A DNA stretch of 64,000 nucleotides from Ensifer sesbaniae. Lineage in GTDB: Bacteria; Pseudomonadota; Alphaproteobacteria; Rhizobiales; Rhizobiaceae. Position 1 is the stretch's first letter. The number at the start of each line of letters is the position of its first letter. Shown here in pieces: positions 14,049-59,496 of the stretch. The stretch is from assembly GCF_013283665.1 (NCBI RefSeq), contig NZ_JABEKU010000002.1, forward strand, positions 1,362,863 through 1,426,862. Reading direction: 5' to 3'. A program made the position numbers and the translations under genes. The notes under the pieces were generated by a model. That model did not search any database. It was not told where the DNA came from and was given only the letters and a program-made list of their open reading frames with translations.

Positions 14049-14774
14049 ATGCTAAGCTATCGCCAGCCCTATCGGGAATTTCGCATGTTGCCAGTTCTTA
14101 TACCGCAAAAGCCTGTGCGTAAGCTGACATCGGCGCTGATCGTTGACGATCACCCCCTTTTCTGCGACGCGCTGGCGATGACACTGACAGGGCCGGTCGG
14201 TATTCCGGACGTTCAGGCCGTCGGCACGCTGGAGGCCGCGCTCACGCGACTTGCCACGTGTCCGCTGCCCGATGTCGTGGTGCTCGATCTCAACCTTCCC
14301 GACGTCAACGGGCTCGACGGCGTGGTGCGCCTGCGCCAAGCTGCTCCGGAAACGCCGATCGTCGTCGTCTCGTCCTTGGACGAGGTGCGCATCGTGCGCG
14401 CCGCGCTGAAAGCCGGCGTCAATGCTTTTGTGCCGAAGCACGCATCGCGCGAAGAGTTCCGCGAGGCATTCTCGGTCATCGCGCGTGGCGAAATCCACGC
14501 CAGCCATCTCACGCTTGAGGGATCCGTCCCGCCGAGTCTGTCAGAGGAAGCGGTCAAGCGGCTGGCGCTCTTGACGCGGCAACAGGCGCGTATCTTGCAA
14601 CTCGTCTGCGCCGGGCGCATGAACAAGCAGATCGCCTACGAGCTTTCGATCGCCGAGACGACGGTGAAGGCGCATGTTACCGCGATCATGCGCAAGCTCG
14701 GTGTCCAGACGCGCATGCAGGCTGTGCTCTTCGCGCAAGAGGCAAGTTTCAACACGATGATCACGGACGCTTGA
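14049..14774 (+). CDS. LuxR/NarL-family response regulator (AgmR/ExaE-like)
   Basis: A 241-residue regulator: receiver domain (residues about 28-145) with the acidic pair in IVDDHPLF, the phosphorylation Asp in VVLDLNLPDVNG and the Lys in FVPKHAS, then a C-terminal LuxR-type helix-turn-helix (LTRQQARILQLVCAGRMNKQIAYEL). Homologues such as AgmR/ExaE/PedR control PQQ ethanol oxidation. It is the natural candidate to bind the ACCWWGGTCGYAT boxes. ATG 14085 is an alternative start; neither has a strong RBS. The partner kinase is probably the hybrid kinase at 16026. Confidence 0.85.
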   Translation: MLSYRQPYREFRMLPVLIPQKPVRKLTSALIVDDHPLFCDALAMTLTGPVGIPDVQAVGTLEAALTRLATCPLPDVVVLDLNLPDVNGLDGVVRLRQAAPETPIVVVSSLDEVRIVRAALKAGVNAFVPKHASREEFREAFSVIARGEIHASHLTLEGSVPPSLSEEAVKRLALLTRQQARILQLVCAGRMNKQIAYELSIAETTVKAHVTAIMRKLGVQTRMQAVLFAQEASFNTMITDA

Positions 14775-14877: not shown

Positions 14878-16029
14878 GTGGACGAACATTACGTATCGCG
14901 TGCGCTCGTTTCCGCGCACGAGACCTGCCCTGTCGAGCACCTGGCGAAAAGCCTCGGCCCCGGCCCCTTTTCACTCGTGCTGCTCTTCGTGTCGCCCGAG
15001 GCGGATGTATCGTCCGCCGTTACCGAGGCCCGAAGGGTCTGGAAGGGCGCGAAGATTGCCGGCTGCACCACCGCGGGCGAGATTTCCGGCGATGGTTATG
15101 ACGAAGAAAGCATTGTCGCCGTCGGTTTCCATGCCCGCCACTTCGCCGCCGAGACCTTGCTAGTCCCCGACCTCTCGAAACTCGTGGCAAGCGACCTTTC
15201 CGACACGCTGCTGCACATCCGTCAGGCTCTGGCCCGCGACCATGGCCACCTGCCGGAAGAGTTCGCCCTCCTGTTTGTCGACGGGCTTTCGGCGCGGGAG
15301 GATGAGCTTGCCTCCGCGCTGGCAGCGGCGACCGGCGCGATGCCGCTGATTGGCGGCTCGGCGGGCGACGGCACGCGTTTCCGCGAAACGCTGGTCTTTG
15401 ATGGCAAGCAACTGCTCGCCAATGCCGCCGTCATCTCCATCATGCGGGGCGCCTGTCCGCTGCGTCCGTTCAAGATGGACCACATCAAGCCGACCGAACG
15501 GCGCATGGTCGTGACGGATGCGGATCCGCAGGCCCGGATCGTGCGGCGCATCAATGCCGAACCGGCGGTAAAGGAATATGCCCGCCTCATCGGCATGCAG
15601 CCGGAAAGCGTCAATACGCTGACCTTCGCCATTCATCCGCTCACCGTGCGCATGGGCGAACGTCACCACGTTCGCGCCATCCAGCGCGTCCTGCCATCGG
15701 GCGAACTTCTGTTCTTCTCTGCAATCGACGAAGGCATGGTACTGACCATCGCCGAGCCGCACGACCTCGTCGGGCACCTCTCGGCGGAACTGAAGGCGCT
15801 CAAGCAACCGGCCAATCCCGTTGCCGTGTTAGCCTTCGACTGCATCCTGCGCCGCATAGAAGCGCAAGAACGGCAGATGATCGGCCCCGTCTCGGAACTC
15901 TTAAGCCAGCATGGCGTCATCGGCTTTTCCACCTATGGTGAGCAGATCGGTCCCATGCATATCAACCATACGATGACAGGCTTTGCCTTCTACCCGCCCG
16001 GCACCGTCTTTTCGGAAAATGCCCCATGA
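14878..16029 (+). CDS. FIST-domain signal-transduction protein
   Basis: A 383-residue cytoplasmic protein with FIST_N (about 25-215) and FIST_C (about 220-365) domains; features such as IAGCTTAGEISGDGYDEESI and the C-terminal GFSTYGEQIG are typical. FIST proteins are sensory partners of kinases. GTG start at 14878 is supported by the RBS GGAGGAGG at 14861-14868. Its stop overlaps the start of the hybrid kinase (ATGA), implying they act together, as in ErcS'/NahK-type pairs that control ethanol oxidation in pseudomonads. Confidence 0.87.
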   Translation: MDEHYVSRALVSAHETCPVEHLAKSLGPGPFSLVLLFVSPEADVSSAVTEARRVWKGAKIAGCTTAGEISGDGYDEESIVAVGFHARHFAAETLLVPDLSKLVASDLSDTLLHIRQALARDHGHLPEEFALLFVDGLSAREDELASALAAATGAMPLIGGSAGDGTRFRETLVFDGKQLLANAAVISIMRGACPLRPFKMDHIKPTERRMVVTDADPQARIVRRINAEPAVKEYARLIGMQPESVNTLTFAIHPLTVRMGERHHVRAIQRVLPSGELLFFSAIDEGMVLTIAEPHDLVGHLSAELKALKQPANPVAVLAFDCILRRIEAQERQMIGPVSELLSQHGVIGFSTYGEQIGPMHINHTMTGFAFYPPGTVFSENAP

Positions 16030-18218
16030 ACGATCGCCTTTCCGATGGCCTGTTCGATCCTGCCGATGGCGAGGCCCGCAACCTCGAAAAGATGCTCGTC
16101 ATCGCCGACGCTCTAATGCGTCATGTCGAGCAGAACACCGGCGATCGGAGCGCCGCCTTCGAACAGTTCCGCCGCGCGGCCATGCTGGAGGAGCGGGTCC
16201 GCCAGCGAACGCGCGACCTCGAAGCGACGCTGAAGCTGCTCAACGAGGCTAACAGCGCGGCCGAGCGCGCGCGCCGCGACCTGTCGCAGGCCATCGAGGC
16301 GATCGAGGAAGGCTTCGCACTCTTCGATCCGGCAGAAGTCCTCGTGCTGTGCAATTCGCGTTTCTGCCGCGATCTTGCGGATGTGCGCCCGAAACTGTCG
16401 CCAGGTATCACGTTTGCAGATTATGTTGAAACGGTCAGCCGCTCTGTGAAACTCGCGCTGCCGCGGGGCGTGACGCCGAAGAGCTGGGCGGCCGAGCGCA
16501 TGCGGCTGCACCGGGCACGGCAGGTCTTCAATGTCGGACTTTCCGGCGACCGCTGGCTCCAGGTCAGCGAGCAGCGCACCGCTGATGGAGGCACCGTCAT
16601 CCTCCAGACAGATATTACCGACCTCATCCGCATGGAGCGTTCGGAACGCGGCAAGCTACTCGACAACCAGGCCCGCATGATCCGCGCCACCCTTGAGCAC
16701 ATCAATCAGGGCGTCGGCATCTTCGACGCCAACCGCCGCCTCGTCGGCTGGAACAGCCGGATCGCGCAATTGCTGGATATTCCACCGCGCCTCCTGCGGC
16801 TGGGCGTCCCGTTCGAGCTGCTGGCAAACCATATCAACCAGGCCATTACCCTCGGCGACGGCTTTTCCGGTGCCGCGCTGCGCCAATGGATTGACGGGGA
16901 TTTGCAGCGCGGACCGCTCTCCTTCGAGATCACGCACGCATCTGGCATCATCCTTGACGTCTTCGCCCAGGAAATGCCGGGCCGTGGTTTCGTCATGTCC
17001 TTTGCCGACGTAACGCGCGAGCGGCACGCAATCCACGCAATGATCCGCGCCAACACTTCGTTGGAGGCGCGGGTCGCCGCTCGGACCGGTGATCTTGCTG
17101 CCGCCCTTGCCGAAGCCGAACGCGCCAACTCCGCTCGCGTCCGCTTCGTTGCGGCCGCGAGTCACGATCTGCTGCAACCACTTTCCGCCGCCAAGCTCTT
17201 CGTAGCTGCTGCAAGGGATGACGCGGACGCGACGCCGATGCGGGGAACGCTGGAAAAGGCGCACAATGCGCTTGTGAGCGTCGAGGGTATCCTCGGGGCA
17301 CTGCTCGACATTTCGCGATTGGAAGCGGGTGGTGCTGCGATGGATGTCGGTCCAGTGCCGCTCTCCCTGCTCCTGAAGCAACTCACCGACGAATTCGCCC
17401 CCGTTGCCGCCCGCAAGGGCCTGCGACTTAATATCCTCCCCTGCGAACTCACCGTTTTGAGCGACTCGACCTATCTGCGCCGCATCCTGCAGAACCTCAT
17501 CAGCAACGCCATTCGCTACACCGCGAGCGGCCGTGTCCTCGTCGGCCCACGCCGCTCGAACGGGCAGGTGCGAATAGAGGTCCATGACACAGGACCTGGC
17601 ATCGCGGCGGACCAGCAACAGTCGATCTTTCGCGAGTTCCATCGCGTCCAGGGTTCCGCCTCGGCCTCCGAGGGGATGGGGCTCGGCCTTGCCATTGTAG
17701 AAAGAGCCTGCGCCCTGCTCGGTCATAGGCTTGTGCTGCGCTCGGACCTCGGGCGCGGCACGTGTTTTTCCGTTGAACTGAAGCCGGTGGCGCAGCATGC
17801 CTGTCCGAACTACGGCGAAGTAGCGCCGGTCATCCCGGAGGAACCGGGCGGAAACAGCGACCGGATCGCCCTTCTCGTCGAAAACGACGTGGACCTGCGC
17901 CGGGCGATCGCACTGTTGCTGGAGCGACGCGGCGTCAGTGTCTTGGAAGCGGGCAGCGGCGAGGAAGCGCTCTCGCTCCTGGAGGAGATCGGCATCGTGC
18001 CCGACCTCTATCTCGTCGACCAGCAGCTCGACGGCGCGTTTACCGGCATCGAAACGGTGGAAGCGCTGCATGCCGAATATGGCGAGCGCCCAACCCGCAT
18101 CCTGACCGCCGACCGCAAACCGCAGACGCGCATGGCCGCCGAAGCCGCTGGAATCGAGATCCTGTACAAGCCGATCGCCGCTGATGCGCTGGAAGCCTTC
18201 GTGCTCCACGCCAGCTAA
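16026..18218 (+). CDS. PAS-domain hybrid histidine kinase (NahK/ErcS'-like)
   Basis: A 730-residue soluble hybrid kinase: coiled-coil (about 50-95), two PAS-like domains (about 95-200 and 215-335), a second coiled-coil, HisKA with phospho-accepting His380 (ASHDLLQPL), HATPase with N- and G-boxes ([25 protein letters not shown]), then a receiver domain with Asp near 665 (LYLVDQQL). No membrane segment is present, so the signal is probably delivered by the FIST protein. The likely output is the response regulator at 14049. Confidence 0.9.
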
Positions 18219-42023: not shown

Positions 42024-43187
42024 ATGTTCAGAACCCAAAAATCCGCCGCCGCTATCCAGACCAATCTGGCCGCCATTTTTGTCTCGATGGAACTCTCTCG
42101 TTCAACCTGGCTGATCACAACGTTGTTGCCGGGGAGCGGCGAGAGGATGTCGAAATATGCCATTGCAGCCGGCAACACTGGCAAGCTGTTCGATCTGTTC
42201 TCGAAGCTGCAGGAAAGGAGCCGCGCCAGGACAGGGCAGGACTGGCCGATCATCACGATCCAGGAGGCGGGTCTTGATGGCTTCTGGATCCACCGGGTGC
42301 TCGTGAAAGAAGGCATCGAGAGCCATATCGTGGATGCGGCGTCGATCGCGACACCACGCAAACGGCGGCGGGTGAAGACCGATCGCGTCGATGGCGAGGC
42401 GCTGCTGCGGGTTTTGTTGGCGTTCAAGAGAGGTGAGCCCCGTGTGTGTTCAATGGTGCGGGGTGTCGCTCACGAGGATGAAGACCGACGACGGATCGGC
42501 CGAGAGCGCAAAGCGTTGATGGTTGAGCGTGTCGCGCACGTCAACCGCATCAAGGGCCTGTTGTTCTCGCAGGGTATTGCCGATTACGAACCCCTTCATA
42601 AAAACCGGCGCCAGCAACTCGAAGAGTTGCGAACGGGAGATGGACAGATACTGCCGCGGCACATGAAGGCACAGATCAGCCGGGAACTGGACCGGTTAGA
42701 ACTGGTCGTCAGTCAGATCCGAACCATCGAAGATGAGCGCGATGCGCTTATCGCCGCGCAGACCACGGATAGCACGAAACCATCGCCTGTCACGATGCTG
42801 CTCGGGATCAAAGGGATTGGCGCAGAGTTTGCAAACCTCCTCTGGTCGGAGGGACTGTTCCGGCATTTTGATAACCGTCGTCAGGTGGCCGCCTATGCCG
42901 GTCTTGCGCCAACGCCTTGGCAAAGTGGCTCGGTCAATCGGGAACAAGGAGTGTCGAAGGCGGGCAATCCGGGACTGCGGTCGACGTTGATCCAGCTATC
43001 CTGGCTATGGTTGCGGCACCAGCCGGGTTCGGCACTGGCAAAATGGTTCAGGGCGCGCGTTGAACGTAATGGCGGGCGCATGAAGAAAACGACCATCGTT
43101 GCGCTGGCACGCAAACTGTTGGTAGCACTTTGGAAATACGTGAACTCTGGGGTCGCGATCGAGGGCGCTGTTATGAAAACCCTATAA
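42024..43187 (+). CDS. IS110-family transposase (DEDD recombinase)
   Basis: A 387-residue, apparently intact transposase: N-terminal RuvC-like DEDD domain (FVSMELSRSTWLITTLLPG, later RRVKTDRVDGEALLRVL) and C-terminal serine-bearing domain with the helix-hairpin-helix (MLLGIKGIGAEFANLLWSEG) and YAGLAPTPWQSGSVNREQGV. It catalyses RNA-guided recombination in studied relatives. Downstream non-coding DNA (299 bp) is much longer than upstream (76 bp). Confidence 0.92.
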   Translation: MFRTQKSAAAIQTNLAAIFVSMELSRSTWLITTLLPGSGERMSKYAIAAGNTGKLFDLFSKLQERSRARTGQDWPIITIQEAGLDGFWIHRVLVKEGIESHIVDAASIATPRKRRRVKTDRVDGEALLRVLLAFKRGEPRVCSMVRGVAHEDEDRRRIGRERKALMVERVAHVNRIKGLLFSQGIADYEPLHKNRRQQLEELRTGDGQILPRHMKAQISRELDRLELVVSQIRTIEDERDALIAAQTTDSTKPSPVTMLLGIKGIGAEFANLLWSEGLFRHFDNRRQVAAYAGLAPTPWQSGSVNREQGVSKAGNPGLRSTLIQLSWLWLRHQPGSALAKWFRARVERNGGRMKKTTIVALARKLLVALWKYVNSGVAIEGAVMKTL

Positions 43188-43801: not shown

Positions 43802-45976
43802 CTAACCGTGAAGCTCTCGCGCATCGTGTGTGAGAGCGCCAGCACGAACCCTTGCTGACTGCTTGTCGAGATAAAGGACCCGGTTGGCGATTGCCAGGCT
43901 TGAAGGGCGGTGAGCAATGATCACCCGGGTCATCGGGAGTTTGCCGATCGCGTCGTTGATGCGGTCTTCATTTTCAGAATCAAGCTGGCTTGTTGCTTCA
44001 TCCAGAAGCAGGATTCCAGGCCGGCGGTAAATTGCTCGTGCCATCACAATGCGCTGCCTCTGCCCTCCGGAAAGGGAGCTACCCATGTCACCAACGAGTG
44101 TTTCAAACGCCATTGGCATCTCAAGGATTTCGTCGCGGATTGCCGCCATTTCGGCGCAGGCCAATATCCATTCTGGGTCCGCATTGGGATCGAAGGTTGA
44201 AATGTTTTCGGCAATCGACCCGGCAAACAGGCGATCATCCTGAAGCACGCATCCGACCCTGTTCCGGTAGGCATGCAGTCCCATCACCGAAATTGGCACA
44301 CCATCGACCGCGACATGTCCCTCCATAGGGCTGGCCAATCCAGCCATGATCTTCAGCAGCGTCGATTTGCCCGCGCCAGACGGACCCGTGACGCCGATGC
44401 ATTCACCGGGGAGAATTTCGAAGCTGAGATCCTTGAAAATATCTGGTTCGTTTTCTGCATAACGGAACCGGAGGTTTTGCACAATAAGGGAACTAGGTCC
44501 CCTTCGGGCAGTGTTCGTCACGACGGACGGTTTCTGGTCGGCTCCCCTCTCAGGTTCCGCATGCGCGATGTCGGCGACACGTTCGCCATGCAGGGACAGC
44601 ATCCGTAGCTCCAAGGCCGTATCGATGGAACTGTTGATCCGACTTGCGAACTGATCCTTGTAAGCAAGAAACGCGATGAGCATGCCGACGGACAGATTTC
44701 CGCTCAGGATTGCATGAGCACCAAGATAGATCATCAGGATACGATCAACACCAAATAGTATCTGGCTAGCAGAGCCAAAGAAAATATCAAATCTTTCGAC
44801 GCGCAGCCGAGCGCCGACGTGATCAACCAGGTAGTTGACCCACACTCCGCGGCGGCGCTGCTCAAAGTTGAGCGCCTTGATGCTGGCCATGCCGCGCACA
44901 CTTTCGATGAAGTGCGAACTTTCCTGGGCTTCACACTTTATCGCTTCTTCCGACATCGATCGGTAGGGCAAATAGGCGCCAAGACGCAAGGCCGCGTAGA
45001 GAAGCATCGTGACGATCGCGAGCACCGCCAGCCAGCCGCCATAAATCACCATCATCGCCAGTAACACGATCGACAGAGCACCATCGACCAGAATGGTGAT
45101 GGCCTTCGTTGTCACTGTTCGCTGGATGGCATCAAGCGATCCAAATCGCGAGACGATGTCGCCGACATGACGCTTTTCGAAGAATTCCATTGGTAGCCGC
45201 ATGAGTTGGTCGAATAGGCTGACTTTCCATTGCAATACCAATTGACCGCCGAATAGCATGGTGGCCCAGGATCGGACGAATTTCGTCAATACCTGAATGA
45301 GCAAAAGTCCACCCAACCCGAGAGCAATCACGGTCAATAGATCATAATCAGCGGCGACAACGATTTCATCGATGACGAGTTGGAACCCGATCGGCATGGC
45401 GACCGTGACCAGTTCCAGAAGAATGGAGATCGCCAGCACCTGCACTGCCACCGATTTAATGCCAGCGGTCCGACCCACAAGATCGATCAGACTGATGCCC
45501 TCGCGCTCATCGCGTGTTTCGAAATGCTCGTTTGGCCACGCTTCCAGCGCGACGCCGGTGAAGCTTTTTGACACATCCGCCAATGAGAGCTTCCGCCGCC
45601 CGATAGCAGGATCATGTACGGTGATACTCTTGCGTCCGACCCGTGTCAGAACCACAAAATGATTATGATTCCAATGTAAAATGCAAGGCAAGCGCAGACG
45701 CGAGAGGTTATTGAGATCAAGTCGCAGAGCACGTGCCGTAAGCTTCATCTCGCTTGCGATTCCGATCAAGTCGCGCAGACTCATCCCCTTGAGTGAGGTT
45801 GAAAAGCGTCGGCGCATGGTAACAAGATCGACCCGATGACCATAATGACCACTTATCATAGTCAAACAGGCAAGCCCGCATTCGGCACTCTCGGACTGGA
45901 TCGCGACGGGTGTCTTTGACCGTAGACGATCAGACAGGATGTCAAGGAGACCGGCATGGTCGCGCAGTTGCATCAT
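43802..45976 (-). CDS. C39-peptidase ABC exporter for double-glycine-leader peptides
   Basis: A 724-residue peptidase-containing ABC transporter of the CvaB/HlyB class. The N-terminal C39 domain has catalytic Cys33 (SAECGLACL), His106 (HWNHNHFVVL) and Asp122 (VHDPAIG), so it should be able to cut leaders after GG. Then six membrane segments (about 165-440) and an ATPase with Walker A (GPSGAGKST), LSGGQRQRIVMARAI and LLLDEATSQLD. Its ATG overlaps the HlyD-like stop. It is last in the operon that begins with two GG-leader peptide genes. It would cleave and export them through an outer-membrane TolC, not encoded here. Confidence 0.93.
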   Translation of the reverse strand: MMQLRDHAGLLDILSDRLRSKTPVAIQSESAECGLACLTMISGHYGHRVDLVTMRRRFSTSLKGMSLRDLIGIASEMKLTARALRLDLNNLSRLRLPCILHWNHNHFVVLTRVGRKSITVHDPAIGRRKLSLADVSKSFTGVALEAWPNEHFETRDEREGISLIDLVGRTAGIKSVAVQVLAISILLELVTVAMPIGFQLVIDEIVVAADYDLLTVIALGLGGLLLIQVLTKFVRSWATMLFGGQLVLQWKVSLFDQLMRLPMEFFEKRHVGDIVSRFGSLDAIQRTVTTKAITILVDGALSIVLLAMMVIYGGWLAVLAIVTMLLYAALRLGAYLPYRSMSEEAIKCEAQESSHFIESVRGMASIKALNFEQRRRGVWVNYLVDHVGARLRVERFDIFFGSASQILFGVDRILMIYLGAHAILSGNLSVGMLIAFLAYKDQFASRINSSIDTALELRMLSLHGERVADIAHAEPERGADQKPSVVTNTARRGPSSLIVQNLRFRYAENEPDIFKDLSFEILPGECIGVTGPSGAGKSTLLKIMAGLASPMEGHVAVDGVPISVMGLHAYRNRVGCVLQDDRLFAGSIAENISTFDPNADPEWILACAEMAAIRDEILEMPMAFETLVGDMGSSLSGGQRQRIVMARAIYRRPGILLLDEATSQLDSENEDRINDAIGKLPMTRVIIAHRPSSLAIANRVLYLDKQSARVRAGALTHDARELHG

Positions 45977-47313
45977 AGACCCTTCGCAGCATCTTCAAAC
46001 ATACGGCCACGCAAACTGTACAGTGGATCGAGCACCCATTGGTAGAGCGGGCGACTATCCGCCAAAATATGCGCCTCAAGCTGCATCCCGACTTGCAGAG
46101 GCTCCTTCCTGTTGTACGCGAGTACGTAATCCTGATCCGGACGCACAGTAATACGATACACTGATTTCGTCTGACGCTCGTCTGCTCCGCCGGTCAACAA
46201 TTGCACTTCCTCCGGCCGCAAAGTGGCCCGCGAAATCAGAGATACAGTTCCGGGGAACTGCCCGAAGCGTTGATATGGGAAAGCTTCGTAGCGCAGCAAA
46301 ACACGATCACCTGCGCGGACGAATCCGATAGCATCGCTGGGGGCAAGAAGCTGTACTTCAAGTGGAGCTTCATTCGGAAGGATCGTCAACATCGGCACGC
46401 CGGCCGTTAGCATCTGGCCAGCCTGGCTGATGACACCTGTGACCCTGCCTGACCTAGGTGCCGTGATCGTGATCTCGCGTTTGGCCTCGCCCTCAGAAAT
46501 CTGCCGATTGATATCAATGATCTGTTGTCGCAACTGGCCGCTATCAGAAGCCGACTGGACATCGAAGGTTAGGAGTTGATTACGCACGTCCGACAGTTTG
46601 GAATTGATCTGGATGCGCTCGCGCTTGAGCGCCTCCAACTGGCTTTCCTGATTCATGTAGCTTTGTTGACGGCTCTCTATCTGCTGCCTTGTCGCGATGC
46701 CGCGCTCCAGGTTTTCCCGCTGTTGTTCCATCCATTTACGCAGCGTATTAGCGCTCTCCCGCGCCAAGCGAATCTGAGCATCCGCTTGGGCAAGCTCAAT
46801 GGCAAGGTTTTGCTCCTGCTCGCGAAGATTCTGCTTCTTTCCGGCGTCAATGCTGCTGCGGCGCTCTAGATCAGCCTGCATTTCGGCCCGGCGCTGCCTT
46901 AGGAGGTCTATAACCGCCAGTTGCGTGCCGCCGCGCGAGGTCATGCTCATGCTGTCAAGACTCATTACATAAAGAACATCGCCCTGACGGACGACCGCTC
47001 CTTCCTTGACCGGCATGCTGCGTATCCACCCCGCTGCCGGCGACAGAACGCGAGTCACCCCCTCCGTAGGAAGAACGATGCCTTGTACGCGTACCCGGCG
47101 CGTATACTCGCCAAAAGCGAGAAAGGCGAGAAGCAAGATTGCAATGACGACTGCGCCCGTAGCAAACATGGACAGCGAAATGCTGCGAGGAAGCTGCGGG
47201 GAGCCGAGCCACGCCATGGAACGGGCCGCCTGAACTTCTGGTCGGAAGAGCGGAACGGTAGGCGGTCTTGAGGGCGCAGCCTTGATGTTCTCCACCGTGT
47301 CAGGAGCAGTCAT
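45973..47313 (-). CDS. HlyD/CvaA-family periplasmic adaptor
   Basis: A 446-residue membrane-fusion protein: cytoplasmic start, one membrane segment (about 45-68), lipoyl-like halves flanking a long coiled-coil (about 130-280, e.g. LRQRRAEMQADLERRSSIDA) and a beta domain (TITAPRSGRVTGVISQAGQM). It bridges the C39 exporter and TolC. Its ATG follows directly on the stop of a small upstream frame (TAAATG), implying translational coupling. Confidence 0.92.
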   Translation of the reverse strand: MTAPDTVENIKAAPSRPPTVPLFRPEVQAARSMAWLGSPQLPRSISLSMFATGAVVIAILLLAFLAFGEYTRRVRVQGIVLPTEGVTRVLSPAAGWIRSMPVKEGAVVRQGDVLYVMSLDSMSMTSRGGTQLAVIDLLRQRRAEMQADLERRSSIDAGKKQNLREQEQNLAIELAQADAQIRLARESANTLRKWMEQQRENLERGIATRQQIESRQQSYMNQESQLEALKRERIQINSKLSDVRNQLLTFDVQSASDSGQLRQQIIDINRQISEGEAKREITITAPRSGRVTGVISQAGQMLTAGVPMLTILPNEAPLEVQLLAPSDAIGFVRAGDRVLLRYEAFPYQRFGQFPGTVSLISRATLRPEEVQLLTGGADERQTKSVYRITVRPDQDYVLAYNRKEPLQVGMQLEAHILADSRPLYQWVLDPLYSLRGRMFEDAAKGL

Positions 47314-47496
47314 TTAATGATCAAACCGTAAAAATCCTATCGCGGATTTGTTGGAAACTGCCCGGCCGACAAACTGGATCCTGGGAATGAAATTGCCAAT
47401 ATCCCCGGATTTTCGCAAAACGCCCCCGGAATCGCGTTCAAATTCTTGCGGATGTCGCATCCGGGCGTCGCACGTTACGTCCTGGCCGCCGCTCAT
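47314..47496 (-). CDS. Small ORF coupled to HlyD adaptor; possible third precursor or immunity peptide
   Basis: Sixty residues from ATG 47496 (GTG 47502 is an alternative; GGGA lies upstream). The stop touches the HlyD start. From an internal ATG at 47460 it reads MRHPQEFERDSGG, with a double glycine and Glu at -8, but without Leu at -12, so it is a weak match to an export leader. It could be a peptide precursor, an immunity protein or a coupling leader. No membrane segment is visible. Confidence 0.4.
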   Translation of the reverse strand: MSGGQDVTCDARMRHPQEFERDSGGVLRKSGDIGNFIPRIQFVGRAVSNKSAIGFLRFDH

Positions 47497-47667
47497 CCGC
47501 ACTCCCGGTCAGATGACGTTACAAGGACCGCCGACAATTCGCTCTGCCGCATTTGAACAGTAAACCTTCGGCGTCCTGTATCAGCCATCTGTCGATTGAA
47601 AGTATCATCCGCGATGACCACGCCCAAAGAACCACTCAACGGCCATTAACAGTGGGCAATCTGAGGA

Positions 47668-47704
47668 CGTCTCGCTGTGAACTAAAAATCACATTTGCGA
47701 GACG
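47668..47704 (-). promoter_or_regulatory. Strong stem-loop between peptide and exporter genes
   Basis: CGTCTCGC-TGTGA pairs with TCACA-(TTT bulge)-GCGAGACG: 13 bp in all with an 8-base loop, 26 bp after the peptide A stop. No T run follows, so it is more likely a processing or stabilising element or attenuator that lets the peptide mRNA outnumber the exporter mRNA. Confidence 0.5.
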
Positions 47705-47729
47705 CCATGATTGCGACGTTCACATTGAT

Positions 47730-47879
47730 TTAGAGTGACAGCCACTCGAAGAAATCGCTAGTCTTTGTGACCGCCCAGTTGTAGCCATGTGCGAAATTTG
47801 CACCGAGACGATAAAAGGCGTTCGACTCATCAGCACCACCTGAAATCATGTCGATCTCTAATTCATTAAGTTCACGCAT
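47730..47879 (-). CDS. Double-glycine-leader peptide A (class II microcin-like precursor)
   Basis: A 49-residue precursor with the leader MRELNELEIDMISGG. It has Leu at -12, Glu at -8, Ile at -7, Ile at -4 and Gly-Gly at -2/-1, the full consensus recognised by C39 peptidases (compare microcin V leaders). The 34-residue core begins ADESNAFYRLG and ends FFEWLSL; it has no cysteine. RBS AAGGAG lies 9 bases before the ATG. It follows peptide B by 45 bp and precedes the adaptor and exporter genes. Killing activity is inferred from the arrangement, not seen. Confidence 0.85.
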   Translation of the reverse strand: MRELNELEIDMISGGADESNAFYRLGANFAHGYNWAVTKTSDFFEWLSL

Positions 47880-47924
47880 AACATTTATCTCCTTAAACCG
47901 GCTCGAAGCCAGACCTAAACTTGT

Positions 47925-48101
47925 TTACAGAGCCTCGAAGAACCCATCAAAAAAGGCGGTGATTTCCGGGACGTGCGTGATAACCAGGCCAAGAGCGATG
48001 GCCGCAACGACACCCCCAGCCACGCCCTCCGTTTCGAAGGTATCCAGTTCAAAAATCACGTCTTGGTCAGATGTACTGCTACCCTGAATTTCGTTTGTCA
48101 T
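47925..48101 (-). CDS. Double-glycine-leader peptide B (class II microcin-like precursor)
   Basis: A 58-residue precursor. Residues 1-30 form a leader ending FELDTFETEGVAGG, with Leu at -12, Glu at -8, Val at -4 and Gly-Gly. The 28-residue core (VVAAIALGLVITHVPE then ITAFFDGFFEAL) is strongly hydrophobic and cysteine-free, fitting a membrane-active bacteriocin peptide. RBS GGGAGA precedes the ATG. First gene of the operon, 92 bp from a LuxR-type box. It and peptide A may act as a two-peptide pair. Confidence 0.8.
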   Translation of the reverse strand: MTNEIQGSSTSDQDVIFELDTFETEGVAGGVVAAIALGLVITHVPEITAFFDGFFEAL

Positions 48102-48192
48102 TGATTGTCTCCCAAGATTCGGTCAAATTTCACGCGTTTCACAGACGAAATGCGCGAAATGGACTATATTATTGCTTTGGAGCGGGGGGCTA

Positions 48193-48208
48193 CTGTCAAT
48201 TATGACAG
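48193..48208. promoter_or_regulatory. LuxR-type box 1, upstream of peptide/exporter operon
   Basis: CTGTCAATTATGACAG, a 16-bp near-palindrome (one mismatch from CTGTCAA-N2-TTGACAG). It ends 92 bp before the peptide B start. The same element precedes the units starting at 50833 and 58779. Confidence 0.65.
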
Positions 48209-50515: not shown

Positions 50516-50833
50516 CTAAGCGTGCTTCGCACTTTCGCCACGGCAGCGGGACGACTCGGAGAAAATCACGAGCGACATGCTCCAGGAAACAACCATCATT
50601 CCGAAGAACGTCACGCACCGGACCAATGCGACCTTGCCAGCAACTTCGGCCCCACCCGAAGCCGTATGGCGCGCCAAGGGCTTTTCAATCGCTACCGGAA
50701 CGAGCATCGAGTGGGCATCCGCTGCCCGCGAAACACCGGCGATTGTCAGTGCAATCGAAGCGGGCGATGCGGTCAGCAAGATGGCGCCGGCCAACGCAAG
50801 GGGTTTGGCCAAAGGCCTGGACAATGAACTCAC
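50516..50833 (-). CDS. Possible small membrane protein under LuxR box 2
   Basis: A 105-residue frame from a GTG at 50833 with two hydrophobic stretches (LALAGAILLTASPASIALTI and VTFFGMMVVSWSMSLVIF). It lies 80 bp from box 2, the same arrangement as the peptide genes, and just before the DUF1176-like gene. The RBS is weak, and another minus-strand frame overlaps its 5' half, so coding status is uncertain. An immunity protein is a possible role. Confidence 0.4.
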   Translation of the reverse strand: MSSLSRPLAKPLALAGAILLTASPASIALTIAGVSRAADAHSMLVPVAIEKPLARHTASGGAEVAGKVALVRCVTFFGMMVVSWSMSLVIFSESSRCRGESAKHA

Positions 50834-50912: not shown

Positions 50913-50928
50913 CTGTCAAAATTGACAG
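50913..50928. promoter_or_regulatory. LuxR-type box 2
   Basis: Perfect palindrome CTGTCAAAATTGACAG (7-bp arms, 2-bp centre), 29 bp after the stop of LuxR-solo 1 and 80 bp before the GTG at 50833. Confidence 0.7.
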
Positions 50929-50957: not shown

Positions 50958-51698
50958 TTACGGATGAATAAGGCCTAGCGCCGTTGCGCGCGCACAAGCG
51001 GCTCTGCGGCCCCTAACGTTGAGCTTGTGCGCAGCCTGATAAAGATGGAAATTCACTGTCCTCTCGCTGATCCCGAGGATCATCGAAATTTCCCAGGACG
51101 ATTTCCCGACCGCCGCCCAATGCAGAACCTCGAGCTCGCGCTCCGACAGGTCGGGCCTTTTGTCGTCCCAGCGCTGCAACCGTGCCATGGCGACGTGCAG
51201 GCAGCTTGCGAAATAGGTCAGCGATGGCAGTGTCGGCAGCAGATCGCGGAGGTCTTTCGTTCCGTCGGTCGTGAAGGTCATGAACGACCAGTTCACGCCA
51301 GGCGCGCCGATCGGGACGGTGATGCCCGAGGTAATTCCATGCTCGCCGGCACTGCGCAGGATCGAGCTTGCCAGTTGCCCTATGGTCGTTTCGGTGAAAC
51401 CGACACGTCCTTCGACATTCCAGGCCGTTGAGGGCATGCCGGCCCGCACATGCAGGACACGGGCGTCACGTTCGGCAATCCGGTCGTTGCCGAGGATGTC
51501 GTATGTCTTTCCCCATTCCGGCGCGAAATCGCTGAAGTTGTAATAGTTTCGCCGATCGGAGCCCGGCTGGCCGCGAAGTCGCACCGCATAGGCCGCGTGA
51601 TTGAAGCCATGCCGGGCCGAGACAATGGAGGCAATTGCCGTCAGATCGCCCAAGGTCGTGGCACGCAGTGCCCTGTCGATATCGTCAAAATATTGCAT
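50958..51698 (-). CDS. LuxR-solo regulator 1 (autoinducer-binding plus HTH)
   Basis: A 246-residue LuxR/TraR-like regulator: N-terminal autoinducer-binding domain (contains YYNFSDFAPEWGKTYDIL and MPSTAWNVEGR) and C-terminal HTH (LSERELEVLHWAAVGKSSWE then ISMILGISERTVNFHL). ATG 51698 (MQYFDD) is chosen by alignment with the paralogue at 58870; ATG 51776 extends it by 26 residues. No luxI synthase is present in the window, so it is a solo here. Box 2 lies just downstream. Confidence 0.85.
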   Translation of the reverse strand: MQYFDDIDRALRATTLGDLTAIASIVSARHGFNHAAYAVRLRGQPGSDRRNYYNFSDFAPEWGKTYDILGNDRIAERDARVLHVRAGMPSTAWNVEGRVGFTETTIGQLASSILRSAGEHGITSGITVPIGAPGVNWSFMTFTTDGTKDLRDLLPTLPSLTYFASCLHVAMARLQRWDDKRPDLSERELEVLHWAAVGKSSWEISMILGISERTVNFHLYQAAHKLNVRGRRAACARATALGLIHP

Positions 51699-51829
51699 GG
51701 CGCTAAGGGCGTGAGACAAAGCTGATACGGAGCGCAGATCGGAACGCGGGTCTACCGCAACCATGACGTGCAGCAACGGTCAAGCGAACACGACAGCAAT
51801 ACCCTTCTATTCGACGAACGGCTACTTTG

Positions 51830-51855: not shown

Positions 51856-51912
51856 GCCCGCACACTCCGTTTGTTACTACAGCTGAGAAAATTCCCGAGA
51901 GAGGATGCAGCG

Positions 51913-52536
51913 TTGGATGAAGCTGAAACGATACTTGTCGCCGACGACCACCCAGTATTTCGCGACGGGCTCGGCTCTCTTATTCAGTCTCAAAATCCTA
52001 CTGCCGCTGTCCACACCTTCGACGCGTTCTCGGATGCCCTTGCGTTGGCCAGGTCGCTCCCCTCCCCGCCGAGCCTTTTCGTCCTCGATCTCTTCTTCTC
52101 GCGCAAGAGCATCAAGTCCGAGCTGCCAGCGCTGCGACGAGAATTCCGGCGGGCGGCGATCGTCGTTGTGACCATGTCCGACGACACGGCAACGATCGAC
52201 GCCGTCATGGCGGCAGGCGTAAACGGCTTCATCTGCAAATCGGCGCCACCGCACCAGATCGCCGCGGCCATCGCCGCGGTCCGTGCGGGCGAAATAGTCA
52301 CTCCGTCTCCGGCGGCTGGCCGGGCGCCGGCGGGCGGCATGTCGACCACGCTCAGCGAAAGACAGCTCGAAGTCCTGCAGCTCATCGCCCAGGGGAAGAC
52401 AAACAAGGAAATCGCCCAGGACCTCGGCCTTTCGCCCTTCACGGTTCGCCTCCACGTCTCGGCGATGTTTCGAAGCCTTGGCGTGACCACCCGCGCTGCA
52501 GCCGTGACCAAGGGCGTTTCCGAGGGAATCCTCTGA
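51913..52536 (+). CDS. NarL/LuxR-type response regulator
   Basis: A 207-residue regulator: receiver with DD in VADDHPVFRDGL, Asp in LFVLDLFFSRKS and Lys in FICKSAPP, then HTH (LSERQLEVLQLIAQGKTNKE then IAQDLGLSPFTVRLHV). A TTG start at 51913 has a good RBS (GAGAGG); an upstream TTG at 51871 has none. Probably paired with the hybrid kinase at 55259-56935, which carries the same dyad upstream. Confidence 0.83.
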   Translation: MDEAETILVADDHPVFRDGLGSLIQSQNPTAAVHTFDAFSDALALARSLPSPPSLFVLDLFFSRKSIKSELPALRREFRRAAIVVVTMSDDTATIDAVMAAGVNGFICKSAPPHQIAAAIAAVRAGEIVTPSPAAGRAPAGGMSTTLSERQLEVLQLIAQGKTNKEIAQDLGLSPFTVRLHVSAMFRSLGVTTRAAAVTKGVSEGIL

Positions 52537-55258: not shown

Positions 55259-56935
55259 TCACTCCCTCAAATCGAGTGCACTGGCAAGAACCACTGACCG
55301 TAGCTCAGCCGGACGCACGGGCTTTGTAAGCAGTGGAATATCGGGATCTCCCAGCTCGTCACGGACGCGATCTGCGTCGTGCCCGCTCATAACCACCACG
55401 GGAATATTCCACTGCTGCACACCTCGCACGACCTCGATGCATTCTTTTCCGGTCACTCCTCCTCCCAAGTCGTAGTCAGTGATGAGCAGATCGCAGTCCT
55501 CGAATGTTTCTGGAATTACGGTCGACTTGTCGACCTCGCAGCCCCAGCTCTCCAGCAGGCTCGCAGTCGCGAGCAGAACGGCGTCGTCATCCTCGACCAG
55601 CAGCACTCGCAGACCGTCCATTGCGGAGACCGGCCGCTGCTGCGCCACCCGCTCACGTTCCGCAAACTGCGGTTCGACCGTCGGAAGCCCGGCCAAGGTT
55701 ACGCGGGTTCCGTGGCCAGGCCTCGATTCAAGGACGACGGTGTGACCAAGCAGCGCGGCCAGCCTCTTCACGATCGGAAGCCCCAGCCCCACCCCTTCAA
55801 TGTCGCGATCACCCCGCTCCCGAACCTGGTAAAACTCTTCAAACAAGTGCGGCTGATGCTCGGCAGCAACCCCAGGACCACGGTCGAAGACCTCGACCGC
55901 AAGCGTCTGGCCATTTCGCCTACAACCGATGACGACCGGCCGACCAGGCGCATATTTGATCGCGTTGTTGATCACGTTCTGCAGCATCGTCGTCAACAGG
56001 CTGGGGTCGCTTTGGACCCAGGCCGACGACCGGACCACGCGGAGTTCCCCGCCGGCGCGCTCCGCGGCCTGAGAATTCTGACGCACGACGTCGTCGACGA
56101 TCTGCTGGACGGCAAACGGTTCGATCTTCGGTGTCACCCTGCCACTGTCCAGCGTCGAGACGTCCAGCAGTGATTTGAAGAGCCGCGACACGCTCTCCAA
56201 AGAGCGGTCGATGTTGTCGACCATCTGCACTTCGCGGGGCCCAAGGCCAGCGTCACGCAGGCAGGACGTGAATAGACTGATTGCGTGAATTGGCTGCCGT
56301 AGATCATGGCTAGCCTGCGCCAAGAACCTTGATTTGGCGAGGTTGGCCTCCATAGCCGCGTGGTAGGCCTTCTGAATTTGCGTGATGAGCGTAAGGACAT
56401 ATGCCGGAACAATCATCGTCGTGAGGACGAGCGTCAGCACCATGTCCGGGTTTTCGCGCCAGTAATTATTGAAATAGCTTGTCAACCCGAGGACTCCGAA
56501 TGCCGCCGCCGTTGCGCCGATGAGGTAACGCGGGCCGAAGCGCAGTCCGTTTGCCAAAGTCACCCATAGCAGAGCCGCGTAGACCGGCAGGGTCGCGGCG
56601 CCGCCCATCGCCAAGGCCAGCAACATGCCGAGGTAATCGTTCGCCATGCCGAATAGCCGGCGGCCGTGGAACTGCCCCGGCCGTTGGAGAATGTCCCGGT
56701 ACAACAGCACAGACACCGGTATATACGCGATCAAATATGCCACGGTGAGCTTGAGCCAAGTCTCGGCGCGATCTTCGCCGCCCAGCAGTTTCGGTACCAC
56801 GTAGAGGCACAACAGAGGCACGAGAACCAAGCGGACCAACGCCTGCCCGCGCTCAGCGTCGTCGCCACGACTGCGGAGCACGTACGCGAAGCTACCAAAT
56901 ACTCTGTCCTGCCACGCCATCGCCGCTTCATTCAT
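55259..56935 (-). CDS. Membrane hybrid histidine kinase (RpfC-like layout)
   Basis: A 558-residue kinase: about five to six N-terminal membrane segments (about 30-190), HisKA with ASHDLRQPIHAIS, HATPase (NVINNAIKYAPG, FDRGPGVAAEH, GVGLGLPIVKRL) and a C-terminal receiver (LLVEDDDAVLL, Asp in LLITDYDLGGG, Lys in LLTKPVRP). Start 56935 (MNEAAM) is the first plausible ATG after the promoter dyad; 56920 is possible. Probably feeds the response regulator at 51913. Confidence 0.87.
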   Translation of the reverse strand: MNEAAMAWQDRVFGSFAYVLRSRGDDAERGQALVRLVLVPLLCLYVVPKLLGGEDRAETWLKLTVAYLIAYIPVSVLLYRDILQRPGQFHGRRLFGMANDYLGMLLALAMGGAATLPVYAALLWVTLANGLRFGPRYLIGATAAAFGVLGLTSYFNNYWRENPDMVLTLVLTTMIVPAYVLTLITQIQKAYHAAMEANLAKSRFLAQASHDLRQPIHAISLFTSCLRDAGLGPREVQMVDNIDRSLESVSRLFKSLLDVSTLDSGRVTPKIEPFAVQQIVDDVVRQNSQAAERAGGELRVVRSSAWVQSDPSLLTTMLQNVINNAIKYAPGRPVVIGCRRNGQTLAVEVFDRGPGVAAEHQPHLFEEFYQVRERGDRDIEGVGLGLPIVKRLAALLGHTVVLESRPGHGTRVTLAGLPTVEPQFAERERVAQQRPVSAMDGLRVLLVEDDDAVLLATASLLESWGCEVDKSTVIPETFEDCDLLITDYDLGGGVTGKECIEVVRGVQQWNIPVVVMSGHDADRVRDELGDPDIPLLTKPVRPAELRSVVLASALDLRE

Positions 56936-57062
56936 GCGAACCACCGTTTTTTGCAAGCGAGACGAGTCCGCCACGGGCTGCCCGCCCGTCTTCGTCCGCC
57001 CGGAATATAGCTGGCCCCAGCCGAAACGGCCGGCGCCAATGAATCGAAATGATGCCGGCAAC

Positions 57063-57088
57063 GCCACTAGCACAAACGGTCTAGTGTC
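57063..57088. promoter_or_regulatory. Dyad operator before hybrid kinase
   Basis: GCCACTAG-N10-CTAGTGTC, one mismatch from the dyad at 51830, 128 bp before the kinase start. Shared site suggests co-regulation of kinase and regulator. Confidence 0.55.
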
Positions 57089-57171
57089 GTCGCTGGTCGT
57101 GTTCGGAAAACGGTCGTTTCCCGAACATTCGCGACGAGGCCTAAAGAGAGCATCGAAAATGCTTGCTTGAT

Positions 57172-57563
57172 GCATCTGGATGAGGTGGTGATTTCCATCG
57201 GTGGCCGAAAACATTGGCTTTGGCGCGCCGTTGACCAGGACGGTTACATTCTCGACGAGATCGTCCAGGCCCGCCGCGATACCAAGGCTGCCAAGCCAGT
57301 GCTGGTCAGGCTGCTGAGGAAGCAGGGCCTTTCGCCGAAGCGCGTCGTCACCGATAAGTTGCGCTCATACGGGGCGGCAAGAAGGGATGCGACGCCCTGC
57401 ATCGAACATCGATCGCACAAGGGCCCGAACAATCTCGCGGAAATTCTCACGGGCCATTTCGAAAACGAGAGCGGATGATGCAGGGCTTCCGATCCGTCGG
57501 CGGTTTGCAGCGTTTCACCTCGGTCTTTTCAGCCGTCAGGAATCTCTTCGTTCCGCCTCACTT
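57172..57563 (+). pseudogene. IS6-family transposase remnant
   Basis: Reads HLDEVVISIGGRKHWLWRAV, then RRDTKAAKPVLVRLLRKQGL and the DDE-domain stretch VVTDKLRSYGAARRD. A one-base deletion near 57440 shifts the frame; the rest (MMQGFRSVGGLQRFTSVFSA) is in the next frame. The N-terminal HTH is missing and the end is cut at about 57563. From there to 57774 nothing is recognisable. Confidence 0.8.
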
Positions 57564-57774
57564 GAGACCGAATGTCCAAGGACGCCTTTGTCGCGTCCGG
57601 CTTCAATTACGAAGAGGCGATCAACCGCATCTTGGCCCGCGCTCGACAGCCTTGAGAGCGGCATTATTTATAATGGGCTCATATGAGCGAACAAGACGGT
57701 TTCGCCCCCCGCCGCCATTAGGGCAGTCACGGCTGCCGTTCATTGTCGACGAAAACTGTGAGCGCGCGGAGCTT

Positions 57775-58129: not shown

Positions 58130-58459
58130 CTGAGCTTTCAATCGCCGGCAGGGTGCACTCGGCCGCAGGAGACGAATGATGCGATCGGCCATCTTGAGGG
58201 TGCTCGGTCGATGTGCAACGATGATCCGCGTCATCGGCAAGGTGCGCACGGCCCCGTTACGCCCCCCACGGGCAGAACGACGCCCGCAACCTTCACGCGG
58301 CGCGTATACTGCGCGTAAATCATCAGAAGGACCGCAAAGCCACGAACATCAATGCGACCATAGATACCGCAGCGAGAGAGAGCCGCCCCTGGTCGTTAGT
58401 CGGGCGACCCGGTCAAGCGCGTTGAAAGACTCTGGTCGAAAGAGAGCAGTTAGTTCCAT
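58130..58459 (-). pseudogene. Collapsed HlyD-adaptor/C39-exporter remnant
   Basis: From ATG 58459 the minus strand starts like the intact adaptor (MELTALFRPESF against LFRPEVQAARS), then, through frame changes, shows the membrane region and YTRRVKVAGVVLPVGGVT, which matches the intact adaptor's YTRRVRVQGIVLPTEGVT. At about 58250 it jumps to the exporter C-terminus: LPMTRIIVAHRPSTLKMADR against LPMTRVIIAHRPSSLAIANR. About 3.3 kb has been deleted between the two genes. Confidence 0.8.
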
Positions 58460-58560: not shown

Positions 58561-58779
58561 TCACTGATTGAAATAAAACTGGTGCGTGCTGCTGCTGTAT
58601 CCAACTGTCAAGCCGCCGTTGACATGCCCACCGCCCCACGTGGCAATAGCACCATAAGAGCCAGTAGCGAAGCGGAACTCGCCCATCTCGAAGTAAAGGC
58701 CGCCGCTAACCGCATCGAGTTCCTTCTCGTTGAGTTCTCTCAGGCCGGAAGCTTCTGCAGTAATTGAATCGTAGTTCAT
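58561..58779 (-). CDS. Double-glycine-leader peptide C (class II microcin-like precursor)
   Basis: A 72-residue precursor. The leader ends LRELNEKELDAVSGG, with Leu at -12, Glu at -8, Leu at -7, Val at -4 and Gly-Gly, almost the microcin V consensus. The 45-residue core (LYFEMGEFRFATGSYGAIAT then a Gly-rich middle and HQFYFNQ) is Gly/aromatic-rich and cysteine-free. GGAGG lies 8 bases before ATG 58779; an ATG at 58791 overlaps it. LuxR box 3 is 64 bp upstream. The adjacent exporter is destroyed, so export would need the intact exporter at 43802. Confidence 0.82.
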   Translation of the reverse strand: MNYDSITAEASGLRELNEKELDAVSGGLYFEMGEFRFATGSYGAIATWGGGHVNGGLTVGYSSSTHQFYFNQ

Positions 58780-58842: not shown

Positions 58843-58858
58843 CTGTCAACTTTGACAG
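58843..58858. promoter_or_regulatory. LuxR-type box 3, upstream of peptide C
   Basis: Perfect palindrome CTGTCAACTTTGACAG (7-bp arms), 11 bp after the LuxR-solo 2 stop and 63 bp before the peptide C start. Confidence 0.7.
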
Positions 58859-58869
58859 GGGTGCAGGGC

Positions 58870-59496
58870 CTAAAGCGTGATGAGACCGAGAGCAATCGCT
58901 CGTGTGCAGGCAGCCTGCCGCCCATTCACTTCCAGCTTGCGAGCAGCCCCTTGCAGATGAAAATTGACGGTCCTTTCACTGACGGAGAGTATCGCGGAAA
59001 TGTCCCACGATGTCTTTCCGAGCGCGGCCCACCGTAAGACCTCCCTTTCTCGTTCGGTCAAACGAGGTGTGGCTTCATCACAACCCTGTAGGCGCCGGGC
59101 GGAGACATGGAGGCAACTGGCAACGTATGTCATCGGCGCGATCGTGCAAAACAGATCGCGCAGATCAAACGTGGCATCGGTCGTGAACGTCATAAAAGCC
59201 CAACTAACGCCCGGAGACGAGATCGGCACGGTGATTCCGGCCCGCAACCCATACTCTCCAGCCCGGCGCAGGATTTGGCCCGCCTGCTTACCAATCATCT
59301 TGTCGGGGCCCATTCGGAAAGTGAAATCGCTGAAGGTAAGAAAATCAGAGCGATCACGCCCATGCAGATCCTTAAATTTAACGGCGTAGGCTTGATGACC
59401 AAAACCAGTGGAAGTCGCCCAAGCCTTCGATTCGCGAACGAGCTCTACAAATGAACTGGCGCGAAGAATTCGTTCAACCTGATCCCAATACTCCAT
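58870..59496 (-). CDS. LuxR-solo regulator 2, shortened ligand-binding domain
   Basis: A 208-residue paralogue of LuxR-solo 1. Both share SDF, then GITVPI, MTFTTD, DLRDL and nearly the same HTH (LTEREREVLRWAALGKTSWD). Between the SDF motif and the GITVPI strand it lacks about 40 residues that in solo 1 hold the EWGKTYD, DARV and MPSTAWN segments, the expected ligand pocket. RBS AAGGA precedes ATG 59496. It likely binds DNA but may not sense the same ligand. Confidence 0.83.
   Translation of the reverse strand: MEYWDQVERILRASSFVELVRESKAWATSTGFGHQAYAVKFKDLHGRDRSDFLTFSDFTFRMGPDKMIGKQAGQILRRAGEYGLRAGITVPISSPGVSWAFMTFTTDATFDLRDLFCTIAPMTYVASCLHVSARRLQGCDEATPRLTEREREVLRWAALGKTSWDISAILSVSERTVNFHLQGAARKLEVNGRQAACTRAIALGLITL

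Follow-up and report, generated by a model that had tools for sequence, protein, structure and literature searches.

We identified, within the 64,000-nucleotide stretch of Ensifer sesbaniae DNA analysed here (the window), a locus that looks built for making and secreting two very short peptides and that, in its presumed function, resembles bacterial peptide weapons. With moderate confidence, we interpret it as a quorum-type, bacteriocin-like secretion system in which a C39 exporter would release short peptides, probably under AHL control. This interpretation draws on direct observations of the gene order, the double-glycine (GG) leaders, the C39 catalytic triad, three LuxR-type boxes, the presence of the box in one other Ensifer genome, and a single C39 exporter.

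Precursors were searched with a strict GG scan, which required an ATG start, a ribosome-binding site (RBS), a hydrophobic residue at -12, E at -8, I, L or V at -4, the GG pair, and a length of 35-110 aa. Three precursors were found in the whole window, all on the minus strand: pepA (47925..48101; 58 aa, with a 30-aa leader and a hydrophobic 28-aa core), pepB (47730..47879; 49 aa, with a 15-aa leader and a 34-aa core) and pepC (58561..58779; a 27-aa leader and a 45-aa core with 20% Gly). The cores of pepA and pepB are both anionic; the calculated masses of the three cores, if unmodified, are near 2961, 3929 and 4914 Da. Their leaders carry L at -12, E at -8, and I or V at -4 before the GG, and Shine-Dalgarno-like sites precede both frames; the two small genes proposed in a sequence-only reading of this DNA were thus confirmed. 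When the 17-kb cluster region (43-60 kb) was dinucleotide-shuffled 200 times, such precursors numbered 0.005 on average and 1 at most. The strict scan found none in the first 43 kb of the window, in 19.9 kb of another Ensifer genome (L046) or in 10.0 kb of the own genome, 0.9 kb of which lies inside the window (L047).

Among 394 family genomes, pepB did not occur beyond its own genome and pepA had no credible relative. Convincing relatives of either were absent from 72,556 plasmid records, and no similarity of their cores was found in Pfam and NCBIfam. From these sequence comparisons, pepA and pepB seem to be strain-specific, a property that is common among bacteriocins. pepC shows a 27-residue match to a peptide of a homologous exporter locus (L033). 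Two weak matches were taken as chance: one to pepA (E 0.0019), within a 590-aa frame, and one to pepC (E 0.005), which contains a stop.

The ABC exporter (43802..45976, minus strand, 724 aa) combines, as expected of a PCAT, the domains Peptidase_C39 (PF03412), ABC_membrane (PF00664) and ABC_tran (PF00005) in one protein, all over their cut-offs, with an intact triad. Aligned with 4ry2/8vp3, a bacteriocin exporter of solved structure, its C33, H106 and D122 coincide with the Cys, His and Asp there. Its score against the NHLP/NHLM model TIGR03796 was 456.6 bits, below the cut-off of 853.3, and it is the sole C39 match in its own genome. The start of the exporter gene is overlapped by the gene for a HlyD-type membrane fusion protein (45973..47313, minus strand, 446 aa), in which HlyD_3 (PF13437) was found over cut-off and which matches the adaptor adjoining the closest exporter relative at 72.6%. 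The adaptor and C39 exporter of the sequence-only reading are therefore borne out by family matches and aligned residues. Three OEP-family (TolC-type) genes for an outer-membrane channel are located elsewhere in the genome.

Between pepB and the exporter genes, a stable minus-strand hairpin was predicted at 47666..47706 (folding of the RNA from 47600-47740 gave a z-score of -2.52, and 4 of 200 shuffles were equally stable), possibly an attenuator or mRNA stabiliser. A scan for consensus promoters and terminators gave matches no more numerous than in shuffles. By inspection of frame and RBS, a possible 60-aa ORF (47314..47496, minus strand) ends directly before the HlyD start; its GTG-started version has no family match, and it lacks a hydrophobic segment (19-residue maximum 0.57). 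Speculatively, it may encode a small protein or serve translational coupling. No immunity gene was identified, this ORF being the only one next to pepB. Given this result and the distant channel genes, describing the operon as complete was too strong.

Behind pepC, tblastn revealed what is left of a second exporter after its deletion (58145..58338, minus strand): an N-terminal HlyD piece (58338-58237) abuts a C-terminal ABC piece (58258-58145), and the middle is missing. With this earlier exporter gone, pepA, pepB and pepC probably all depend on the intact one. The region has IS-type genes on its flanks, among them an IS110-type transposase at 42024-43187.

LuxR1 (50958..51776, minus strand; likely ATG at 51698, 246 aa) contains an autoinducer-binding domain (PF03472, 31.6 bits) and a GerE HTH (PF00196, 66.4 bits), both over cut-off, and keeps the W, Y, D and W positions of LasR in alignment. 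Sequence comparison identified LuxR2 (58870..59496, minus strand, 208 aa) as its paralogue, with a ligand-binding domain that is short of about 38 residues; as part of its ligand pocket is gone, it is uncertain which LuxR acts. A pattern search located three boxes of the form CTGTCA-N4-TGACAG: box 1 (48193..48208) upstream of pepA, with 91 bases between it and the start codon; box 2 (50913..50928) between LuxR1 and orf50a; and box 3 (58843..58858) between LuxR2 and pepC, 63 bases before the latter. Two of the three stand in front of GG genes, and two directly follow LuxR-type genes. The 6.9 Mb genome holds exactly these three copies, all within 10.7 kb, and no copy of the reversed control pattern.

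The gene after box 2, orf50a (50516..50833, minus strand), encodes 105 aa from a GTG, with hydrophobic stretches. In another Ensifer genome (G011), its homologue (43.6% over 94 aa) occupies the same place behind a LuxR1 orthologue (84%) and an identical box, in the same order as in the window; G011 gave no exporter match. The LuxR box named in the sequence-only reading was thus strengthened. LuxR1 is rare, occurring only in its own genome and G011 among 61, so the conservation of the box rests on one other genome. Additionally, the box was absent from all 20 exporter-bearing relatives and from four loci whose LuxR1 homologues are distant (30-34% identity), which indicates that this control is local to the lineage. 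LuxR1 resembles LasR, RhlR, SdiA and TraR in its Autoind_bind and GerE domains and, for LasR, in the aligned residues; it differs from them in that no luxI gene adjoins it (two LuxI-family genes are located elsewhere in the genome) and in that the box follows the luxR gene and precedes the presumed target. The locus had first been bounded too narrowly, with pepC, the relic exporter, the two LuxR genes with their boxes, and a histidine kinase/response regulator (HK/RR) pair overlooked.

We propose that LuxR1, with its AHL-pocket positions kept, would bind the boxes, presumably in an AHL-dependent manner, and would activate pepA-pepB-HlyD-ABC and, as a separate target, pepC. The exporter's C39 domain is predicted to cut pepA, pepB and probably pepC after the GG. 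The ABC and HlyD proteins, together with an outer-membrane channel encoded elsewhere, would then export cores of 28, 34 and 45 residues, which most likely inhibit neighbouring bacteria. Counted against this interpretation are the anionic cores, the lack of a nameable immunity gene and of pepA/pepB relatives, the pocket loss of LuxR2, the rarity of LuxR1, the absence of the box from relatives, and the HK/RR pair as another possible regulator. The cores are also shorter than those of any verified class II microcin covered in a 2022 review (PMC10233263).

Class II microcins of Enterobacterales (microcin V and its kin) share with this locus a GG leader, here in all three precursors, a C39 ABC exporter with Cys-His-Asp, a HlyD-type membrane fusion protein, and TolC-type channel genes elsewhere in the genome. 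The triad spacing equals that of CvaB, given as Cys32/His105/Asp121 (PMC9746304). According to the 2022 review, leaders measure 15-18 aa, a range that fits the 15 aa of pepB exactly but not the 30 and 27 aa of pepA and pepC; verified cores measure 60-90 aa, unlike all three found here; and immunity proteins have no sequence features in common (PMC10233263). The present locus further differs in its LuxR-type box control. The earlier label of class II microcin therefore agrees with the machinery and leaders, but not with cores of 28 and 34 aa and no identified immunity gene, and we rejected filing the locus in that class on core size.

In Gram-positive bacteria, class IIb two-peptide bacteriocins consist of two peptides, each about 30 aa long and made with a GG leader, whose genes accompany that of a C39 exporter. 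The two short GG peptides beside the exporter are similar in arrangement (sequence similarity was compared in Pfam and NCBIfam only), whereas their cores are anionic and their host is Gram-negative. That an AHL circuit drives a Gram-negative two-peptide bacteriocin of 28 and 34 aa, with pepC re-using the surviving exporter after losing its own, is a tentative and rather unlikely elaboration.

Homologous C39 loci, with exporters 46-73% identical, were found in other Alphaproteobacteria and in Halomonas (L048, L030-L036, L003-L006, L056-L063). For these loci, a looser GG scan replaced the strict scan used for the window. Within the stretches examined, 16 of 19 loci carried a GG precursor. The same scan scored in 47 of 380 loci after shuffling and, among real loci that lack the exporter and served as controls, in 2 of 14. 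The looser scan gave false matches inside HlyD (window 45973-46299; L035 7670) and, as judged by eye, at L030 3710, L058 950 and L032 107, but none of the 16 loci owes its place in the count to a false match alone. The count of 19 omits L036, which is near-identical to L031 (and has a GG match and, by annotation, an HK/RR pair), L002 and L027, which both represent the locus of L048, L028, which represents that of L063, and matches below 46% identity (L007-L025, L029). The adaptor stands beside the exporter in these loci, as in the window, but the peptides are others. Thus, of the gene order sought in relatives, the pepA and pepB frames are not conserved, while the architecture of exporter plus GG precursor is. 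Taken literally, the missing pepA/pepB frames are the outcome that the sequence-only reading had named as speaking against it. The exporter occurs in 1 of 16 genus genomes (its own) and in 10 of 394 family genomes, its own included; sporadic occurrence and peptides that differ between loci are as expected of a competition trait.

Peptide pheromones are sensed by kinase/response-regulator systems in Gram-positive bacteria. By analogy, the GG peptides might be signals rather than toxins, sensed by the hybrid histidine kinase (55259..57214, minus strand; HisKA-HATPase-REC with several hydrophobic segments, true start probably near 56938) and the NarL/FixJ-type response regulator (51871..52536, plus strand; 59.6% to one beside a related exporter, L032) of the window. 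This we consider unlikely, although related HK/RR pairs also adjoin the exporter in 7 of 19 homologous loci (L048, L057, L058, L030, L031, L032, L034; L033, with a response regulator fragment only, was not counted). A conserved GG core, V(T/V)xGPxGxxCTxP, is common to five relatives, and a plasmid search with one such CT-type peptide matched three records, all with this exporter and kinase; the CT-type peptide is, however, absent from the window. Close kinases were found in 18 plasmid records, 13 of which were examined: five carry the exporter, but eight lack it within 6 kb by annotation and tblastn, which gave only general ATPase-domain matches. The kinase tree mixes exporter-linked and non-linked kinases, the window's nearest being non-linked, though many forks are weak. 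Upstream of the GG genes (19 stretches, 9 loci), no inverted-repeat arm common to two loci was found that could mark a shared response-regulator site; one 8-mer recurred in four loci, where plain shuffles would give 0.09. Based on the kinases without exporter and the mixed tree, a pheromone circuit through the HK/RR pair is treated as a rival and not as the main reading.

Decay of the locus, leaving no functional product, appears improbable. In its favour are the relic exporter, the shortened LuxR2, the IS-type genes on the flanks and the lack of pepA and pepB relatives; against it, the frames of the exporter, the adaptor, both precursors and LuxR1 are all intact, and neither box, leader nor triad has been lost. 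An action on biofilm or a plant host, instead of on competing bacteria, is likewise improbable. GG peptides have a biofilm role in Synechococcus (PMC4997328), RaxABC of Xanthomonas has been connected with rice immunity (PMC4216712), and the best plasmid matches of the genome belong to Ensifer adhaerens, mostly from soil and rhizosphere. Nevertheless, no specific link to biofilm or host was found here, and the sporadic exporter and unique cores better fit competition.

The 2022 review assigns all confirmed microcins to Enterobacteriaceae (PMC10233263); Serratia was added to the hosts later (PMC13101503), and Pantoea, Erwinia and Xanthomonas have yielded candidates of weak activity (PMC13174018). 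Having an intact exporter, three precursors and three boxes, this rhizobial locus would be a clean test bed for AHL control of C39-exported peptides in Alphaproteobacteria, and for the question of whether Gram-negative competitors are affected by cores as short as about 30 residues.

Contig C2 (2.35 Mb) of the 6.9-Mb genome carries the pepA operon, in a window whose 20-42 kb part matches Ensifer adhaerens megaplasmids over 65% of its length with ~91% identity. On the minus strand, the transcription order is pepA (47925-48101), pepB (47730-47879), a hairpin (47666-47706), a HlyD-type adaptor gene (45973-47313) and a C39 peptidase-containing ABC exporter gene (43802-45976). An IS110-type transposase gene (42024-43187) flanks part of the cluster. 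The double-glycine (GG) leaders and the intact C39 triad proposed by the sequence-only reading were both recovered: pepA and pepB carry L-12, E-8, I/V-4 and GG, and C33/H106/D122 of the exporter align with the Cys, His and Asp residues of the solved bacteriocin exporter 4ry2/8vp3, offset by one residue from the CvaB triad Cys32/His105/Asp121 given in PMC9746304. OEP-family genes, at three places elsewhere in the genome, are candidates for the outer-membrane channel.

Our strict GG-precursor scan identified three genes in the 64-kb window and none in its first 43 kb, while 200 shuffles of the 17-kb cluster region gave a mean of 0.005 and a maximum of 1. The same scan found no precursor in L046, a 19.9-kb locus of another Ensifer genome (G011), or in L047, 10.0 kb of the same genome as the window and overlapping it by 0.9 kb. 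Both precursor genes proposed from sequence were thus among those found, together with a third that had been overlooked, pepC (58561-58779). The remains of a second exporter (58145-58338) follow pepC, in which a HlyD N-terminal piece (58338-58237) abuts an ABC C-terminal piece (58258-58145). Since the intact exporter is the sole C39 match in the genome, pepC, if C39-exported, must use it.

The exporter was found in its own genome only among 16 genomes of the genus, and in 10 of 394 family genomes, its own included (E 1e-200 or better). The closest homologue is from Brucella daejeonensis (73%), followed by two family genomes (62-63%) and by a MAG, Phyllobacterium, Paracoccus, Rhizobium, Agrobacterium vitis and Halomonas (57-61%); the L060 homologue contains one in-frame TAA. 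With a looser scan, at least one GG precursor was detected in 16 of 19 homologous exporter loci (stretches of 11.5-22 kb), against a background of 47/380 shuffled loci and 2/14 real control loci without the exporter. The peptides vary from one locus to another, which, together with their presence in most loci, indicates a conserved architecture with cores that are not conserved. Lack of conservation of the pepA and pepB frames had been set as a refuting outcome and, taken literally, this is what the homologous loci show. In the 394 family genomes, pepA had no credible relative (one match, E 0.0019, inside a 590-aa frame) and pepB no match; at E 1, neither had a match in the 72,556 plasmid records. 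Likewise, pepC had no credible relative, although 27 of its residues match a peptide of A. vitis. Against reading this as a refutation, the cores of accepted microcins are also described as highly variable (PMC9746304).

A short, conserved GG core with one cysteine, V(T/V)xGPxGxxCTxP, recurs in five exporter loci (minus strand of L048, ~4918, L030, ~4687, and L031, ~3249; L057, 13377-13529; L003, 4236-4382) and is absent from the window. A plasmid search with one such peptide returned three records only, all carrying the exporter and the kinase; a conserved signal or factor is possible.

The LuxR-type box claimed ahead of the operon is present. Its sequence, CTGTCA-N4-TGACAG, occurs at exactly three places genome-wide, all in the window, and the reversed control pattern at none. 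Box 1 (48193-48208) is separated by 91 bases from pepA downstream, box 2 (50913-50928) is directly behind LuxR1 (50958-51776), and box 3 (58843-58858), which deviates at one position from the A/T-only centre of the window scan, is directly behind the paralogous LuxR2 (58870-59496), 63 bases upstream of pepC. By inspection, a -10-like TATAGT lies ~32 bases downstream of the box 1 centre; matches in a simple promoter scan were no more frequent than in shuffles. Among 61 genomes searched, LuxR1 occurs only in its own and in G011, where the orthologue (84%) has an identical box at the corresponding position and, after it, a homologue (43.6% over 94 aa) of orf50a, the gene after box 2. Since boxes 2 and 3 sit behind LuxR genes and the rare LuxR1 keeps an identical box in G011, LuxR1 is the natural candidate for the putative binder. 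The autoinducer-binding domain of LuxR1 scores over the cut-off, and the LasR residues W, Y, D and W, which take part in AHL contact, align in it. LuxR2 is 38 residues shorter and lacks the stretch holding both W and the D, and its autoinducer-binding match barely passes the cut-off (23.4 vs 23 bits). Two LuxI-family genes are located elsewhere in the genome. The box was found in 0 of 20 exporter-bearing relatives and in 0 of 4 distant LuxR1 homologue loci examined (of 11 records matched).

The G011 module spans 8959-10153 of L046, in a genome with no exporter match in the genus search. Judged from this locus, the LuxR1/box/orf50a module predates the peptide operon or is independent of it.

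The window also encodes a response regulator at 51871-52536 and, at 55259-57214, a hybrid kinase, with 59.6% and 54.8% identity respectively to their exporter-linked counterparts at L032, a homologous exporter locus. Such a pair adjoins the exporter in 7 of 19 homologous loci, and sensing of these GG peptides by the pair is possible but unsupported. Among 18 plasmid records that hold a close kinase, only 5 have the exporter; in eight of the other 13, which were examined, no C39 exporter lies within 6 kb and the kinase adjoins a MacB-type pump, autotransporters or genes of other kinds. The kinase tree did not separate exporter-linked from non-linked kinases, and no upstream dyad common to the GG genes was found. 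The pair may help regulate secretion generally. Beside the kinase relatives on plasmids at L076-L083, a related response regulator lies nearby in 7/8 and the neighbours differ (MacB-type pump, autotransporters, HrpK-domain protein); pairs of this type could be general regulators that secretion loci have recruited. A more distant response regulator (14049-14774) and hybrid kinase (16026-18218), ~32% identical to the cluster pair, are also in the window. By eye, ~57100-57700 resembles a transposase remnant flanking part of the cluster, and the kinase frame seemingly starts inside it.

The proposed class II microcin type stood as to the export machinery, which is alike, but not as to the cores. 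Verified class II microcins are given as 60 to 90 aa (PMC10233263), whereas the pepA and pepB cores have 28 and 34 aa with net charges of ~-3 and ~-2. Because of these short, anionic cores, and since no candidate immunity gene could be pointed out at the locus, we rejected the class II microcin label. The locus looks like a class II microcin in export machinery and may or may not act as one.

Among the papers listed on class II microcins in Alphaproteobacteria, double-glycine/C39 systems in Rhizobium and R. etli, Ensifer adhaerens bacteriocins, rhizobial bacteriocins/LuxR, and lux boxes with bacteriocins or microcins, no title or opening of an abstract describes the system. The 2004 GG-peptide screen of Gram-negative genomes by Dirix et al. 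(cited in PMC10233263, described in PMC9746304) may have taken in such rhizobia, so absence from print is not proven. Quorum control by another signal, AI-2, has been published for microcin PDI (PMC5743794). Other possible roles of GG peptides are those of signals or biofilm factors (PMC10233263). Most likely, LuxR1, probably with AHL, would activate the pepA operon as well as pepC, the exporter's C39 domain would trim the GG leaders, and cores of 28, 34 and 45 aa would exit via a type I channel to inhibit competitors.
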